Origin: Bacteroidales bacterium
Lineage (GTDB): Bacteria > Bacteroidota > Bacteroidia > Bacteroidales > VadinHA17
NCBI GenBank assembly: GCA_021157415.1
Contig: JAGGWN010000046.1
Span: 1 to 64,000 of the forward strand
Reading direction: 5' to 3'
Length of the DNA: 64,000 nucleotides
In this document: piece by piece, positions 36,720 to 44,316 of the stretch
Layout: every line of letters begins with the position of its first letter
How positions within the stretch are numbered: the stretch's first letter is position 1
Position numbers and translations under genes: made by a program
Notes under the pieces: model-generated
Databases searched by the model: none
Told to the model about the DNA's origin: nothing
The model's input: only the letters and a program-made list of their open reading frames with translations

Positions 36720-38288
36720 TCAATTATTTTGTTTTACTTTCTTCACGGCATCAATGACGGTTCCGTCCACCCATTTGATCACAGCGATAGCCTGATTGTC
36801 AAACTCCGGTTTATCGGGTTTTCCACAGATTTTTTCAGCTTCTTCTTTTAATTCTTCAATGGTTTTAACCGGGAGATCCGAACCTTTGACTTTTTCCAGT
36901 AAGTCAGTGCGTTGGGGGTTGATAGCAATCCCTCTTTCGGTAACAATAACATCTACCAGTTCGCCGGGTCCGCAAAGTGTGGTGACTTCATCCACCACCA
37001 CCGGGATGCGGTCACGGAACAGGGGCACAGGCAGGATAACGGTTTTGGAGAAAAGGCAGTTTTGCCATCCTCCGATGCCGTGCAACAGGTACCCGTCGGA
37101 ATGGGTTACTACATTGGCGTTGAAATGAACATCCACTTCGGTAGCCCCCAGAATAACCACATCCACCATGCCTGCGAAGTTACCTTTGCTATGGTAATTG
37201 TAAGAGGTAAAAGGACTGGTCCATACGTGGTTTGGGTTTTCTGCCATGGAGCGTACACCTTCCAGGTCAAATGTCTGACCGTCCAGGATATATTCCACCA
37301 GTCCTTCCTGTAGCATGGATACCAGATACTTGTTACTCCCTCCCCGGGCAAAACGGGCTTTTATACCTTTTTGCTGCATGATCTCTCTGAAGTATTCTCC
37401 CACGGCCAGAGAGGTTCCTCCCGCCCCTGTCTGGAATGAAAAGCCGTCGTGGATAATGCCTGTAACTTCACAAAAACGGGCAGTCAGTTCGGCCAGATAA
37501 AGCCGGTCGGGACTTTTGGTAATCCGGGTGGTCCCCGAGATGATTTTTTCGGGATCTCCCAGTTTGTCTATTTCCACGGTATAATCAACGTAATTTCCCT
37601 GGATTTGCCAGGGTACACAGGGAAAAGGGACCATATTATCCGTTACGACAATTACTTTATCAGCATATTGCGAGTCGGCCAGGGCAAAGCCCAACAGTCC
37701 TGTGGCGGAGGGGCCGTATAGCCCGTTGGCATTGCCAAAAGGGTCGGCACAGGCAGCACCGATAACGGCTATGTCGATTTTTACTTCTCCATCCTGGATT
37801 GCCTGATATCGTCCCCCGTGAGAGCGTAGCACACCTACCCCTTTCATCTTTCCTTCCGAAGCAAATCTCCCCAACGGTCCGTTCATACTCCCTTCAATAT
37901 GATGTATGGTTCCATCCTCCAGGTAAGGAATCAGGTGCTCATGGCAGGGAAAGGAGGCCGAAGGGAACCATCTCAGGTTCTTGATACCCAGGTCATGAGC
38001 AATGTCAAAGATCATGTTTGCCAGATAATCCCCGTTGCGGAAATGATGATGGGTGGAGATAGTCATGTCGTCTTGCAGACCGGCTTTGATCAATGCTTCT
38101 TTCAGTGAGGGTATCTGCTTGTTCCCATCGGAGGGGTAATCCATGTTACTGGGGATCTTGGGTGCATGTTTCCGGCCGGCAGGTTTATATTTCCCTACTC
38201 CGTAAAATGGAATGACAGGTGTCCCGTTTACTTCGGCAGGGACCATGCGGCCTGCTGCATTCCTGATCCATTGCGTCTGTTTTCCCAT
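36720..38288 (-). CDS. citF: Citrate lyase alpha subunit (citrate CoA-transferase)
   Basis: Full-length; SFQTGAGGTSLAVGEYFREIMQQKGIKARFARGGSN, VVTHSDGYLLHGIGGWQNCLFSKTVILPVPLFRDRIPVVVDEVTTLCGPGELVDVIVTERGIAINP. Confidence 0.92.
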   Translation of the reverse strand: MGKQTQWIRNAAGRMVPAEVNGTPVIPFYGVGKYKPAGRKHAPKIPSNMDYPSDGNKQIPSLKEALIKAGLQDDMTISTHHHFRNGDYLANMIFDIAHDLGIKNLRWFPSASFPCHEHLIPYLEDGTIHHIEGSMNGPLGRFASEGKMKGVGVLRSHGGRYQAIQDGEVKIDIAVIGAACADPFGNANGLYGPSATGLLGFALADSQYADKVIVVTDNMVPFPCVPWQIQGNYVDYTVEIDKLGDPEKIISGTTRITKSPDRLYLAELTARFCEVTGIIHDGFSFQTGAGGTSLAVGEYFREIMQQKGIKARFARGGSNKYLVSMLQEGLVEYILDGQTFDLEGVRSMAENPNHVWTSPFTSYNYHSKGNFAGMVDVVILGATEVDVHFNANVVTHSDGYLLHGIGGWQNCLFSKTVILPVPLFRDRIPVVVDEVTTLCGPGELVDVIVTERGIAINPQRTDLLEKVKGSDLPVKTIEELKEEAEKICGKPDKPEFDNQAIAVIKWVDGTVIDAVKKVKQNN

Positions 38289-38328
38289 ATTCTTGCCTCC
38301 TTATATAATAAGGTATATGAAATTTATT

Positions 38329-39528
38329 TCACAATAATCCCAGTTGTTTTGCCAGGCTGACAATACGCTGGGCTCTTTTAACTACCGGGGGGTCGATCAT
38401 TTTGGTTCCCAGGGATACGACACCTAGTCCTTTCTCACGGGCTTTGGCAAAAGCATCCACAATCTTTAGGGCTTTCCCGATCTCTTCGGGGGTGGGCTCG
38501 AAAGCCTTATGGATAACCTTGATCTGCCGCGGATGGATGCATCCCATCCCTTCAAATCCCAGATTCCGTGAAGCCTTAACATTTCTTGTCAACCCCTCCA
38601 TGTCGGAGATATCCGAGAAAACAGAATCAATGGGTTGTATCCCGGCAGCCTTACAGGCATTAACGAGGCGTGTACGTGCATAGAAAGATTCCGATCCTTC
38701 TGGAGTGCGGGAGACCCCAATATCAGCAGTATAGTCTTCCAGTCCGATAGCCATCGCAACGACAGAGGGTGTACTGGTAGCCAGCATGTAAGCATTTTCC
38801 ACACCCAACGCGGTCTCGATGAGGGGCATCAGATAGACCTCCCGGTCGTTTCCGTTATCTTGCAGAATATTGCGGATGGTTTTATCAATCATTACCAGAT
38901 CTTCCGGATGCTCCGCCTTGGGAACCAGGACAACATGGACGTTATGGGGGATCACTGCTTTCAGATCTTCCAGTCCTGCAGGGAGCGGATTAATCCTGAC
39001 CATACGTTCAGCACCATAAAAATCAACCTGCCGGAGAGCATTACGCACCAAAAGACGAGCTTCCTCTTTTTTATCCGGTGCCACGGAATCTTCGAGATCC
39101 AGAATCACACCGTTGGGCTTATGTATGCCTGCGTTCAACATCAGAGCCGGGGTATTGCCCGGCAAATACAAACGGGAAAAACGAAAGGCATCCCGTTGGG
39201 AAGGATAGTCATTCTGTGAAATAAAATCCGGAAGAAATGATTTATCCGAAGCGGTAATGCTCTTTATGGCAGCCTCCAGCCGCGCCATGATCACGAAATC
39301 CAACGCACCGCTATCTATGAGTCTGACTTTAGCATGGGTTATATCGAAAAAAGCCAGGATCCGTTCTGTGAGATTATGCATATGCCGTCCGTACATAGAC
39401 TTAACTTTGGATTGTATATCTATGACAATTCCACCTGTATTTTTTATTTGCACGGAGACATAACAATCGGAGCGGACTTTATCGCCGGTATTTCCGGCAG
39501 TGGCGGAAATAAAATTCCTTTTATCCAT
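38329..39528 (-). CDS. Fused citrate lyase gamma (acyl-carrier, CitD-like) and beta (CitE-like) subunits
   Basis: N-terminal ~100 aa CitD-like (SVQIKNTGGIVIDIQSKVKSMYGRHMHNLTERILAFFDITHAKVRLIDSGALDFVIMARLEAAI); rest CitE-like (RLYLPGNTPALMLNAGIHKPNGVILDLEDSVAPDKKEEAR). Confidence 0.87.
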   Translation of the reverse strand: MDKRNFISATAGNTGDKVRSDCYVSVQIKNTGGIVIDIQSKVKSMYGRHMHNLTERILAFFDITHAKVRLIDSGALDFVIMARLEAAIKSITASDKSFLPDFISQNDYPSQRDAFRFSRLYLPGNTPALMLNAGIHKPNGVILDLEDSVAPDKKEEARLLVRNALRQVDFYGAERMVRINPLPAGLEDLKAVIPHNVHVVLVPKAEHPEDLVMIDKTIRNILQDNGNDREVYLMPLIETALGVENAYMLATSTPSVVAMAIGLEDYTADIGVSRTPEGSESFYARTRLVNACKAAGIQPIDSVFSDISDMEGLTRNVKASRNLGFEGMGCIHPRQIKVIHKAFEPTPEEIGKALKIVDAFAKAREKGLGVVSLGTKMIDPPVVKRAQRIVSLAKQLGLL

Positions 39529-39593
39529 AGCACCCGGTTTCAGTTAATGAGGTAAAGGTAACAAAGTATATCCGAAAAAAATCATGTTGCAGA

Positions 39594-40004
39594 TCACTCC
39601 CGGTTTGTTTCACATAATTCTACCAAAACACCATGGGTTGAAGCTGGGTGAAGAAAAGCAATTTGTAATCCCTCTGCACCCGCACGGGGATGCCGGTCAA
39701 TCAATCTGACCTGTTGGCGATCCAAATTATCCAGAATTTGAGGAAGATCTTCCGTCTCAAAAGCAATATGATGAATTCCTTCTCCTCTTTTTTCAATAAA
39801 CTTTGCTACAGGACTGTCGTGTGAAGTTGGTTCCAGCAGTTCGATCTTTACCTTTCCGATCAGATAAAAAGCGGTTTTAACATGCTGGTCAGAAACGGTT
39901 TCCTCCCGGTAACACTCCAGTCCCAATATCTGCTCATAGAATTTCCGGGCCTCTTGTAAATCCCTGACAGCAATGCCGATATGTTCAATTTTCGAAGTGA
40001 TCAT
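39594..40004 (-). CDS. mce: Methylmalonyl-CoA epimerase
   Basis: KIEHIGIAVRDLQEARKFYEQILGLE, KRGEGIHHIAFETEDL, HPASTHGVLVELCE. Confidence 0.92.
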   Translation of the reverse strand: MITSKIEHIGIAVRDLQEARKFYEQILGLECYREETVSDQHVKTAFYLIGKVKIELLEPTSHDSPVAKFIEKRGEGIHHIAFETEDLPQILDNLDRQQVRLIDRHPRAGAEGLQIAFLHPASTHGVLVELCETNRE

Positions 40005-40439
40005 GGATGATGAATTTTGTATTTATATTTCTGTAAATGTATGCCTGTGAATATATTAATTTTATGATATTCGTCAATAACCGACCGAGAGGATAACCGG
40101 AAAACCGGTGATGTATCTCATCTTTTTGTGGTTAGGTAAATCATCCGTATTTTTGGAACTTTCATTTTTTTTTTCATATTTTTAAGGTAAATATAAAATA
40201 TATTGTTGTCTGATTGTTAGAAGGGGAGAATAGTCGTTGTTTTAAGTGAAGCGTTAAATTCACTTTTTGAAGGGAAGTATAATAGTGTTCCGAAGGTGAA
40301 TAAGCGATTGTAGGCATTGATAAATTTAAGTTTCAGAAAAAATAAAAAGAAGGCATTAATTTTATGAATCAAGAAGAAAGGGGGTGTACTAACTAAAAAG
40401 ACATAAATACATAAGTTATGTTTTCATTCACGGATTGTT

Positions 40440-40545: not shown

Positions 40546-40930
40546 CTATAAAATAATGATTAAGAAAATGATGAGGTTGTGTTATGCCTGATTGAGGGGA
40601 AATAACATATAGCGAACATGTGTAAGCTTATGCTTGTTTCATACGCAGGTGTTTCCTGTCCGGTTGGGTGAGAATGAAAATCTTGATTTTATGGACATGT
40701 TATTCATGGTTATTTCCTGCTGGGGATAAACAGGTAATACTTCAAGAGGGTTAATTACAGGAAAATGGGAAGGAAAAATAATTTTGTACACCATAATGTT
40801 TGAATTTATGAATTGAAAAACTTGTTTTTATATATACCTAATATATACCGCTTATGTAAAGAGTCATACCATCTTGTAATAAATAATATATGGCAGGCAG
40901 GAAATGCAAGCAGCCGCCAAACAAAACTTA

Positions 40931-40968
40931 AACTAACTAACTAAACGAAACTAACTAACTAAACGAAA
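40931..40968 (+). repeat. 18-bp-period tandem repeat AACTAACTAACTAAACGA (about 2 copies) plus nearby degenerate ACTAA units
   Basis: Direct reading; copies start at 40931 and 40949, further AACTAACTAATTAACTAAAAC at about 40980-41001. Confidence 0.9.
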
Positions 40969-41008
40969 AAAAGACTATAAACTAACTAATTAACTAAAAC
41001 TTAACACC

Positions 41009-41965
41009 ATGAAAACAAAATCTGCTTCTGCTTTAACTGTTCTTGAGGAACAGGATGTAAATTATGTTAAATCGCTGGTTGCCAAAGGTGGTCCTGACCG
41101 GTATGATTACAGGCCGTTTTTTTCTGTTCTGGAACAGTTGGATGAACAAGGATTCAGCGAGATCAGAGACCTTCTAAAGCCTATTATGAATGAAAGAACC
41201 ATGGTTGGTTTTGCATATACCAAACCTTTTGGATATGCCGGCGATTTTCAGATCATTGATTACATGTATCAGCAAAAGGTGAGTGATCATCCGATGTATG
41301 GTAAATGGGATAGATGGTATCATGAGCAACATGCTGCAAAAGCGGTTAGAAACAGAAAGGAATTTTTTAAGAATGTTCTGGAAGAGTTGAATGCTACGGC
41401 CGACAAACCTAAAGAAGTGTTGGTGTTGGGAAGCGGGCCGGCTACGGATGTTTATGAGTTTCTGAATGCTCATCCCGATTCAAAGTTGCATTTTGATCTG
41501 ATTGACCTGGATCAGCGTGCTATTGATTACGCCAGGGAGAAAAACGCCAGATTCCTCGACCGTCTCAATTTCATCAGAATGAATGTGCTTCGTTATCAAA
41601 CACATAAATTCTATGATCTTATTTGGAGTGCAGGGTTGTTTGATTATTTTAAGGAAAAACATTTTATATACCTTCTCAGGAAATACCAGGCTTATGTAAA
41701 AGATGGCGGGGAGATGATCATTGGTAACTTTTCGGATCAGAATCCATCTACCAAAGGAATGCATGCCTTGCTGGAATGGCATTTGAACCAACGGTCGCCT
41801 CAGGATCTGGTACGTTATGCCGTGGAAGCAGGAGCCAGAGAGGATAATATATCTGTTGACAAGGAGCCCTTGGAAGTAAACTTGTTTCTAAGAGTGAAAA
41901 AACCATCAAATCCTTTTAGAAATGCTGAAACTTTTATATCTTGGCTCGAAATAAACAACAACTAA
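41009..41965 (+). CDS. PhcB-like class I SAM-dependent methyltransferase
   Basis: KPFGYAGDFQIIDYMY, EVLVLGSGPATDVYEFL, FDLIDLDQRAIDYA, YDLIWSAGLFDYFKEKHFIYLLRKYQAYVKDGGEMIIGNFSDQNPSTKGMHALLEWHLNQRS. Confidence 0.75.
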   Translation: MKTKSASALTVLEEQDVNYVKSLVAKGGPDRYDYRPFFSVLEQLDEQGFSEIRDLLKPIMNERTMVGFAYTKPFGYAGDFQIIDYMYQQKVSDHPMYGKWDRWYHEQHAAKAVRNRKEFFKNVLEELNATADKPKEVLVLGSGPATDVYEFLNAHPDSKLHFDLIDLDQRAIDYAREKNARFLDRLNFIRMNVLRYQTHKFYDLIWSAGLFDYFKEKHFIYLLRKYQAYVKDGGEMIIGNFSDQNPSTKGMHALLEWHLNQRSPQDLVRYAVEAGAREDNISVDKEPLEVNLFLRVKKPSNPFRNAETFISWLEINNN

Positions 41966-41970
41966 AATGA

Positions 41971-43941
41971 ATGTTATTTCAGCGTAAGGAGAAAGTGAAA
42001 TTTGCAAAGGATGGAGCTTCTGACATTGGGATGAAGCTTCATCCTTTTACTTTGCATTTTGTTGATGACCAGGCTTATCTGGAGGAAGAATATAGAAACT
42101 TTTATTTTTCCGAATCCATAGGTTCTATTCGGATTACGCTGGTTCTTGCCATTTTCTTTTATGCTGTTTTTGCCGGGCTGGACGTCGCCGTTGCAAAACA
42201 ATTTCAGACACCATTGTGGCTGATTCGTTTTGCATTTGTCATTCCTGTGCTGGTTCTGTTACTGATTTCCTCTTATCGTCCCTGGTTCAGAAAATATGTT
42301 CAGCTACTCGTGGGTATAGGGATGTACCTGACGGGATTCGGTATTATTTTAATGATATTTTATGTATCAAAGATAGGGCTATATACCTATTATGCCGGTC
42401 TGATGTTAATATTTATGATCGGTTATACATTTATCCGGCTGAGAATTGTTTCAGCTACCATAGCAGGGTGGTCTATCGTGCTGACCTATGAAATTGTAGC
42501 CGTAGGCTTTGCGCATACTCCTACGGTAGCGTTGATCAATAATAACTTCTTTTTTGTTTCAGCCAACGTAATCGGTATGTTGATATGTTACTTTCTGGAC
42601 CGTACCAACCGCCGTGACTTTTATATGAGAAAACTGCTGGAAATTGAAAGGAATAAAGTGAAGGCAGCCAATGATATTCTTGAACAGAAGGTACAGGAAA
42701 GGACACAACAACTCCTTGAGACCAATGTTGAGCTGAAAAAAGAGATAGAGCTTAGAAAACAATATGAAAAAGAAAGGACCAAGCTGGAAGCCCAGTTGAT
42801 GCAATTACAGAAAATGGAAACCATTGGCACCCTGGCCGGAGGAATCGCGCATGATTTCAACAATATCCTTACCCCTATTTTAGGGTATACGGAGATGGCT
42901 CTGGAAGAAATTGAAGAAGACAACACCTTACGCTTTGATATAGAACAGATCAATCATGCTGCGATTCGTGCCAAAGACCTGGTACAGCAGATCCTTACCT
43001 TCAGCCGTCAGATGGATGTGGAGAAAAAACCGTCCGATCTGAAAGCGATTATCGAAGAGGTGCTGAACCTGGTGCGGGCCTCGTTGCCCAGGAATATCAT
43101 GATCAAAACAAATCTGAAAAAAGGATGCGGCAGCGTGATGGTGGATGCTACCCAGATACATCAGGTGCTTATGAATCTATGTACCAATGCTGCTTATGCC
43201 ATGACCCCCGACGGAGGAGATCTTTTTATTGGTCTGAAAGAAATAGAGCTGGATGCCAGACAGGTGAAAAAACTGAATAGTATCAGTCCCGGCGTCTATG
43301 CCAATATTACAGTTACAGATACGGGTGTTGGGATGGACAAACAAACGATGCAAAGAATTTTCGAGCCTTTTTTTACAAAAAAAGAAGTGGGCGTTGGTTC
43401 TGGACTGGGTCTGGCTGTGGTGCATGGGATTATTAACAGTTACAGAGGAGCTATTACCGTGGAGAGTGCGCCGGGTAAAGGGACTACTTTTGATATTTTC
43501 CTGCCCAGTTTCAGTGATGCCAAAGAGACAGAGATATCCGAAGAATTCCTCAAAACAGGGATGGAGCATATCATGTTTGTTGATGATGAGGAAGAGGTTA
43601 CTTTTATCGGAAAAAAGATGCTCGAGAGCCTGGGTTATTCGGTTACGATCAGAACAGACGGAAACAGAGCCTTCCAGGAATTTAAGGCACATCCGGATGA
43701 GTACGACCTGCTGGTTACCGACCAGGTGATGCCGGGATTACTGGGGACCAACCTGGCTGCCAAATTCAGACAATTAAACCCTAAACTGAAAGTGATTATC
43801 ATTACCGGCGCAAAAGAATCAATCAATGAAAAGATCATCGAAGATTACAAAATTGACGAACTATTACTGAAGCCGTTGAAAATTAGCGAGTTCAGTAAGG
43901 TTATACGAAAAGTACTGGATGAAAAGAATAAAAATAATTAA
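41971..43941 (+). CDS. Hybrid sensor histidine kinase with six-TM N-terminal sensor and C-terminal receiver
   Basis: Six hydrophobic helices (residues ~45-215), H-box GGIAHDFNNILTPILGYTEM, ATP-binding VTDTGVGMDK / GVGSGLGLAVVHGII, receiver HIMFVDDEEEV...DLLVTDQVMP. Confidence 0.93.
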   Translation: MLFQRKEKVKFAKDGASDIGMKLHPFTLHFVDDQAYLEEEYRNFYFSESIGSIRITLVLAIFFYAVFAGLDVAVAKQFQTPLWLIRFAFVIPVLVLLLISSYRPWFRKYVQLLVGIGMYLTGFGIILMIFYVSKIGLYTYYAGLMLIFMIGYTFIRLRIVSATIAGWSIVLTYEIVAVGFAHTPTVALINNNFFFVSANVIGMLICYFLDRTNRRDFYMRKLLEIERNKVKAANDILEQKVQERTQQLLETNVELKKEIELRKQYEKERTKLEAQLMQLQKMETIGTLAGGIAHDFNNILTPILGYTEMALEEIEEDNTLRFDIEQINHAAIRAKDLVQQILTFSRQMDVEKKPSDLKAIIEEVLNLVRASLPRNIMIKTNLKKGCGSVMVDATQIHQVLMNLCTNAAYAMTPDGGDLFIGLKEIELDARQVKKLNSISPGVYANITVTDTGVGMDKQTMQRIFEPFFTKKEVGVGSGLGLAVVHGIINSYRGAITVESAPGKGTTFDIFLPSFSDAKETEISEEFLKTGMEHIMFVDDEEEVTFIGKKMLESLGYSVTIRTDGNRAFQEFKAHPDEYDLLVTDQVMPGLLGTNLAAKFRQLNPKLKVIIITGAKESINEKIIEDYKIDELLLKPLKISEFSKVIRKVLDEKNKNN

Positions 43942-43944
43942 ACC

Positions 43945-44316
43945 ATGCAAAGAATAATTGTTATTGATGATGAGCCTTATATTCTGCTAATGTTAAAAAA
44001 GATGCTGGAAAAAGAAGGCTATGAGGTGGATATGGCAACCAACGGCGTGGAAGGTATTGAGCTGTATCATAAAAACGGAGCCAACCTGATTATTACGGAT
44101 ATTGTAATGCCTGAAAAAGAAGGGCTGGAGACGATCATGAACCTGAAAGGAGAGAACCCCGATCTGAAAGTAATTGCTATTTCAGGAGGAGGACGAGTTG
44201 ATTCCCGGGAATATTTGCATTCGGCTCAACTGCTGGGTGCGGAAAAAATATTTCCAAAACCTTTTAAGAAAGATGAGATCGTTCGGGCGGTTAAAGAATT
44301 GCTGGAAGAAGAATAA
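43945..44316 (+). CDS. Single-domain response regulator (receiver only)
   Basis: RIIVIDDEPYILLMLKKML, NLIITDIVMPEKEGLE, KIFPKPFKKDEI; no output domain. Confidence 0.95.
   Translation: MQRIIVIDDEPYILLMLKKMLEKEGYEVDMATNGVEGIELYHKNGANLIITDIVMPEKEGLETIMNLKGENPDLKVIAISGGGRVDSREYLHSAQLLGAEKIFPKPFKKDEIVRAVKELLEEE

Follow-up and report, generated by a model that had tools for sequence, protein, structure and literature searches.

A candidate Phc-like lipid-signal module of methyltransferase, six-TM hybrid kinase and receiver in a Bacteroidales bacterium

The genome of a Bacteroidales bacterium carries a trio of genes, encoding a methyltransferase (MT), a hybrid histidine kinase (HK) and a receiver protein, in which we see a strong candidate for a lipid-signal module akin to Phc. 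In our reading, the three proteins probably constitute a signal synthase, receptor and receiver module that is built from Phc-type parts and employs a methylated lipid-like signal, and the likely function of the trio, as far as can be told from sequence, is the synthesis and intramembrane sensing of this signal. Since the trio is related to the fatty-acid-methyl-ester system of Ralstonia, these bacteria may talk by means of a lipid signal. A preliminary description of this DNA had proposed lipid-signal quorum sensing. This proposal gains from the presence of a PhcB homologue, from a PhcS-related sensor and from the co-occurrence of MT and kinase, and it loses with respect to PhcR, PhcQ, PhcA and a PhcS-like kinase core, none of which has its counterpart here.

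Layout and conservation of the trio

The window, i.e., the whole stretch of 64,000 nucleotides that was analysed, contains the trio at positions 41009-44316. All three genes lie on the plus strand, and the gaps between them are 5 and 3 nt according to the ORF calls, which bears out the tight packing described earlier. The features are the following:

41009..41965, plus strand: class I SAM methyltransferase of the PhcB superfamily, proposed signal synthase, 318 aa (Pfam Methyltransf_25; hhalign against PhcB; AlphaFold2)
41222..41245, plus strand: KPFGYAGD motif, MT residues 72-79, with K72, P73, G75, Y76, G78 and D79 invariant in 42/42 aligned family members including PhcB
41348..41356, plus strand: RNR motif, MT residues 114-116, R116 invariant (family alignment)
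41429..41449, plus strand: GSGPATD, SAM-binding motif I, MT residues 141-147 (Pfam and family alignment)
41630..41650, plus strand: AGLFDYF motif, MT residues 208-214, common to PhcB (comparison with PhcB and family alignment)
41774..41794, plus strand: EWHLNQR motif, MT residues 256-262, W257 and R262 invariant (family alignment)
41971..43941, plus strand: six-TM hybrid sensor histidine kinase, proposed receptor, 656 aa (Pfam HisKA, HATPase_c and Response_reg; CckA/VirA-like core)
42079..42606, plus strand: six-TM sensor domain, kinase residues ~37-212, related to the PhcS sensor (AlphaFold2 helices; hhalign with controls)
42829..43008, plus strand: HisKA with H-box GGIAHDFNN, phospho-acceptor His294 (Pfam and residue check)
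43144..43506, plus strand: HATPase_c domain (Pfam)
43570..43905, plus strand: C-terminal receiver domain of the kinase, acceptor Asp584 (Pfam and residue check)
43945..44316, plus strand: stand-alone receiver without output domain, 123 aa, acceptor Asp52 (Pfam Response_reg alone)

The motifs quoted earlier for the methyltransferase (KPFGYAGDF, GSGPATD, AGLFDYF and EWHLNQR) can all be located in the first gene product and coincide with the columns that are conserved in the family, and the third gene had rightly been called receiver-only, Response_reg being the sole Pfam domain in its 123 residues.

An Rfam search in and around the operon gave no match above the gathering threshold. Directly before the MT start codon lies an ACTAAC-rich repetitive leader (~40925-41005), and the 1-kb intergenic region contains a conserved block on the side of the divergent genes (40104-40190); both are common to the genus. 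The divergent conserved neighbours (36720-40004, minus strand) encode, by eye, citrate lyase alpha-like, CoA-ester lyase-like and VOC/methylmalonyl-CoA epimerase-like proteins. They adjoin the trio within the family, but not in more distant loci.

The MT was found in 22 of 59 relatives, and all 22 also have the kinase sensor, as compared to a sensor match in 4 of the 37 relatives lacking the MT, two of the four being weak (Fisher p 1.7e-12, a value that ignores shared ancestry, as counts among related genomes are not independent events). The two genes hence co-occur in related genomes, as the preliminary description had anticipated. Order and orientation of MT, kinase and receiver are identical in 15/15 completely readable loci, which by their assigned labels span three families of the order, with MT-to-HK gaps ranging from 4 nt to ~340 nt. 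The same gene order in every relative with complete context argues that the arrangement is not due to chance. Across Bacteroidota, the suggested conservation of the trio was found only in part, in that the order holds in all complete loci, but the occurrence outside the group is sporadic: an MT match at E 1e-6 or better was obtained in 13 of 395 other Bacteroidota genomes, most of them from one family (f43). Some relatives have kept kinase and receiver and lack the MT. At one such locus (L194, 4210-8010), the gene upstream of the pair instead encodes a putative esterase (PF00756).

The methyltransferase and its relation to PhcB

A plasmid of Paraburkholderia graminis encodes an MT (468 aa), an HK (445 aa) and two response regulators (134 and 344 aa), and a scan of named genomes with this MT as the query returned loci from Ralstonia and Cupriavidus, which encode, in a row, an MT of 463-470, an HK of ~442, a REC-HK of 368-380 and a REC protein of ~335 aa. 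Since these sizes and domains match the published ones (PhcB 464-468, PhcR 368-374 and PhcQ 336-337 aa, with their domain make-up; PMC8578825), these reference loci are true phcBSRQ operons.

Judged by profile comparison, the homology between the window MT and PhcB is remote, yet unambiguous. Its profile aligns with that of PhcB at an hhalign E-value of 8e-33 over 236 columns, and the pairwise match has E 1e-25; all hhalign E-values given here are those of single comparisons. This upholds the earlier PhcB-type assignment as one of remote homology. The invariant positions that are common to the MT and PhcB comprise K72, P73, G75, Y76, G78, D79, R116, G143, G209, D212, Y213, N240, W257 and R262. 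In the tree, the window-type and green sulfur-like MTs on the one hand and the PhcB group on the other form separate, well-supported clades with long branches, which makes the MT a homologue and not an orthologue of PhcB. Furthermore, the earlier likeness does not extend to the full architecture, because PhcB (464-468 aa) carries ~200 additional N-terminal residues that have no equivalent in the 318-aa MT. With an identity to PhcB of ~25% and a clade of its own, the MT may also differ from PhcB in its substrate.

The MT is present in one copy in the genome, and its AlphaFold2 model has a pLDDT of 90.8. A Foldseek comparison of this model with the PDB returned generic small-molecule methyltransferases, with 3ocj (function unknown) as the top match, and did not separate substrates. 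A PDB search by sequence gave weak matches to the core only and no solved structure close to the family. The structural check against PhcB is thus weak, given the lack of a close solved relative and the generic nature of the best folds. NCBIfam was uninformative in this respect, in that genuine Ralstonia PhcB itself matches no model, and a match of the MT to FlxJ lay far below the cut-off of that model.

In this context, a product other than a fatty acid ester, for instance a polyketide, a quinone or an O-methylated alcohol, has to be considered. The kinase would then sense this methylated small molecule, such that the genes would still form a synthase/receptor pair. We deem this rather unlikely. 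It would fit with the low identity to PhcB, with the closest folds being assorted O- and C-methyltransferases of secondary metabolism, and with the fusion of one family member to a polyketide synthase, but the conserved motifs are common to PhcB across the family, and the sensor of the partner kinase is related to PhcS, which is a methyl-ester receptor.

Several family members occur in other surroundings. At a pair of loci (L163 5541-6998 and L055 634-3771), one member is fused to a cyclic-nucleotide-binding domain and another makes up the C-terminal part of a type I PKS that is encoded on a plasmid of Enterobacter ludwigii. Distant relatives in Rhizobium and Roseateles adjoin GGDEF/EAL genes (L054 3623-6837 and L053 3448-7859), which suggests that they are coupled to cyclic-di-GMP signalling. 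In one single-contig genome (G009 contig 1; L023 and L025), the MT is in two pieces ~178 kb apart, with kinase and receiver following the second, reflecting either a rearrangement or an assembly error.

The six-TM sensor and its partners

The N-terminal ~260 residues of the kinase contain no accepted Pfam domain. The AlphaFold2 model (pLDDT 79.7) predicts six membrane helices at residues ~37-212, connected by short loops and without a periplasmic domain, and hydropathy agrees with this, so that the six-helix topology proposed earlier for the hybrid kinase can be retained. On the strength of profile comparisons, this six-TM sensor is specifically related to the sensor of PhcS, and the similarity extends over its entire length. 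Sensor plus part of the linker matched the PhcS profile at E 5e-9, the membrane columns alone did so at E 8e-5 with 170 columns in register, and a sensor profile expanded with cyanobacterial homologues reached E 1.2e-7. All controls, namely RegB six-TM kinases, reversed PhcS, 20 column shuffles and the green sulfur-like LuxN/CqsS-type sensors, gave E 0.03 or worse. Rotated PhcS profiles were excluded as controls, because they retained alignable segments and still scored. RegB/PrrB had also been considered as a possible relative of the sensor, but the profile comparison revealed no similarity. The earlier notion of a Phc-type sensor is thus substantiated, for the membrane columns alone and with null controls, but it does not apply to the kinase core, for which the closest models are VirA-like and CckA and which is not PhcS-like.

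In its fold, the sensor model comes closest to the six-TM anchors of two cyclases, ImcA and adenylyl cyclase 9 (TM 0.5-0.69, with modest E-values). For anchors of this design, an exchange against CqsS, a quorum-sensing receptor with a lipophilic ligand, has been shown to be possible (PMC4821796).

The six-TM sensor was detected in 13 of 395 other Bacteroidota genomes, most of which lack the MT, and without the MT the module is also found on other kinases and (by eye, from C-terminal motifs) on phosphatases. Because it occurs without the MT, it may sense something more general. In two other Bacteroidota loci (L228 1435-2847 and L229 1441-2877), the same sensor is fused to what by eye is a SpoIIE/PP2C-type phosphatase. 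Cyanobacterial plasmids encode the window-type six-TM protein in stand-alone form (L218 7825-8718; L219 4772-5560 and 5908-6780), beside or one gene away from HTH or PadR regulators and, in one instance, in the vicinity of conjugation genes; such a protein is possibly a membrane receptor by which plasmid functions are controlled.

A kinase that monitors membrane state or lipid stress, with an MT under its control that modifies membrane lipids or detoxifies fatty acids and no signal passing between cells, would agree with this wider distribution on other effectors and with those relatives that have kinase and receiver without the MT. We nevertheless regard such a role as improbable, since the genes of MT and kinase lie close together with that of the synthase in front, since their co-occurrence within the order is almost strict, and since the same pairing is found with a LuxN-like kinase in green sulfur-like bacteria.

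Members of the MT family are found together with a sensor kinase in three phyla, namely in Bacteroidota, in Betaproteobacteria and in Cyanobacteriota (Pseudanabaena). On the Pseudanabaena plasmid, a PhcB-like MT adjoins a kinase and a receiver, and the six-TM part of this kinase matches the window type at E 3e-16. In the green sulfur-like genomes (family f43; L152-L157 and L161), an MT orthologue of ~40% identity adjoins a hybrid kinase with six TM helices and a core for which LuxN is the best match (E 1e-91 to 3e-99). That this family represents green sulfur bacteria we infer from its gene content and its LuxN/CqsS-like kinases, and the MT and the LuxN-like kinase possibly constitute an unrecognised quorum-sensing pair. 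The MT thus stays next to kinases with a membrane sensor although this sensor is not always of the same kind, as would be expected of a signal synthase. On a Paraburkholderia caribensis plasmid (L221 3831-7472), a kinase with the green-sulfur-type six-TM sensor directly follows a ketoacyl-ACP synthase III-like gene, possibly another synthase/receptor pair.

Methylation of the kinase or the receiver protein by the MT, akin to CheR in chemotaxis adaptation, might be imagined from the adjacent two-component system and a weak match to CheR, but is very improbable, because this match (16.5 bits, E 0.0058) is below the Pfam cut-off of 27, the family is PhcB-like, and the partner sensors vary between groups while the MT stays the same.

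Proposed mechanism and comparison with known systems

In the favoured reading of a lipid-signal module, the MT, a member of the PhcB superfamily with an intact SAM site, would methylate an acyl or similar lipophilic substrate, in the simplest case a hydroxy fatty acid at its carboxyl group, and the product would be an ester able to pass through membranes. With rising cell density, this ester would accumulate and, inside the bilayer, bind to the six-TM domain of the kinase dimer, thereby altering phosphorylation at His294. From there, phosphate might be passed on to the receiver domain of the kinase (Asp584) and to the stand-alone receiver (Asp52), the acceptor residues being present in both. 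As DNA-binding domain, PhcQ and PhcA are all absent, the output would presumably consist of protein contact or onward phosphorelay. Counted against this reading are the MT relatives in non-kinase settings (GGDEF-EAL neighbours, PKS fusion, cNMP-binding fusion) and the fact that no output regulator was identified for the trio.

More tentatively, PhcB-type MTs could be widespread lipid-signal synthases whose intramembrane receptors are interchangeable, with six-TM kinases of the PhcS type serving as such in Betaproteobacteria, Bacteroidota and a cyanobacterium, and kinases similar to LuxN/CqsS doing so in green sulfur bacteria. The window could then hold the first methyl-ester-type quorum sensing of Bacteroidota. 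In a genome survey confined to Pseudomonadota, the phc cluster turned up in Betaproteobacteria only (PMC10653808), and among the papers searched, none describes a Phc-like system in Bacteroidota. If true, the presence in Bacteroidota of a synthase and a receptor of the Phc type, which have relatives in a cyanobacterium and in green sulfur-like bacteria, would bring lipid-ester signalling to groups for which few cell-cell signals are known. One could then test, as a general question, whether several kinds of six-TM receptors within the membrane obtain their ligands from a single methyltransferase family.

With respect to known systems, the likeness to CckA/VirA-like hybrid kinases covers the kinase core and the receiver only and excludes the six-TM sensor, and we know of no methyltransferase partner of such kinases. 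CqsS and LuxN of Vibrio are hybrid kinases that likewise have several TM helices and lack a periplasmic domain. A difference is that CqsA does not belong to the methyltransferases. In the green sulfur-like genomes, the neighbour of the window MT orthologue is a LuxN-like kinase whose N-terminal part has six TM helices, and CqsS-type receptors have been reported in green sulfur bacteria (PMC10158934). By profile, the window sensor has no detectable relation to the green sulfur-like LuxN/CqsS-type set, and judged by this comparison and by its core, which best matches VirA-like/CckA models, the kinase is not of the CqsS/LuxN type. LqsA is a different kind of enzyme from the MT. Compared by description, the Legionella LqsA/LqsS/LqsR system resembles the trio in its clustering of a synthase, a six-TM kinase and a receiver-type regulator (PMC10653808, PMC4821796).

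The closest comparison is with PhcBSRQ of Ralstonia and Cupriavidus, which uses 3-OH PAME or 3-OH MAME. In terms of its sequence, the trio is not an orthologous Phc system. The window MT lacks the N-terminal ~200 residues of PhcB and falls into a separate clade, and the kinase is a hybrid with a CckA/VirA-like core. PhcR, to which the third gene had been likened, is not receiver-only in Ralstonia but has the architecture REC-HisKA-HATPase (PMC8578825), whereas the third gene of the window encodes a lone receiver of 123 aa. PhcQ and PhcA are absent as well, since matches to PhcQ in the genome cover its receiver part and not its C-terminal part, and the assembly contains no LysR substrate-binding domain, hence no LysR regulator and no PhcA. 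With the N-terminal region of PhcB, PhcR, PhcQ and PhcA missing and a different kinase core, the output must differ from that of Phc. What the trio has in common with PhcBSRQ is a homologous MT domain, a homologous six-TM sensor, the order of MT, HK and receiver protein, and a receiver without a DNA-binding domain.
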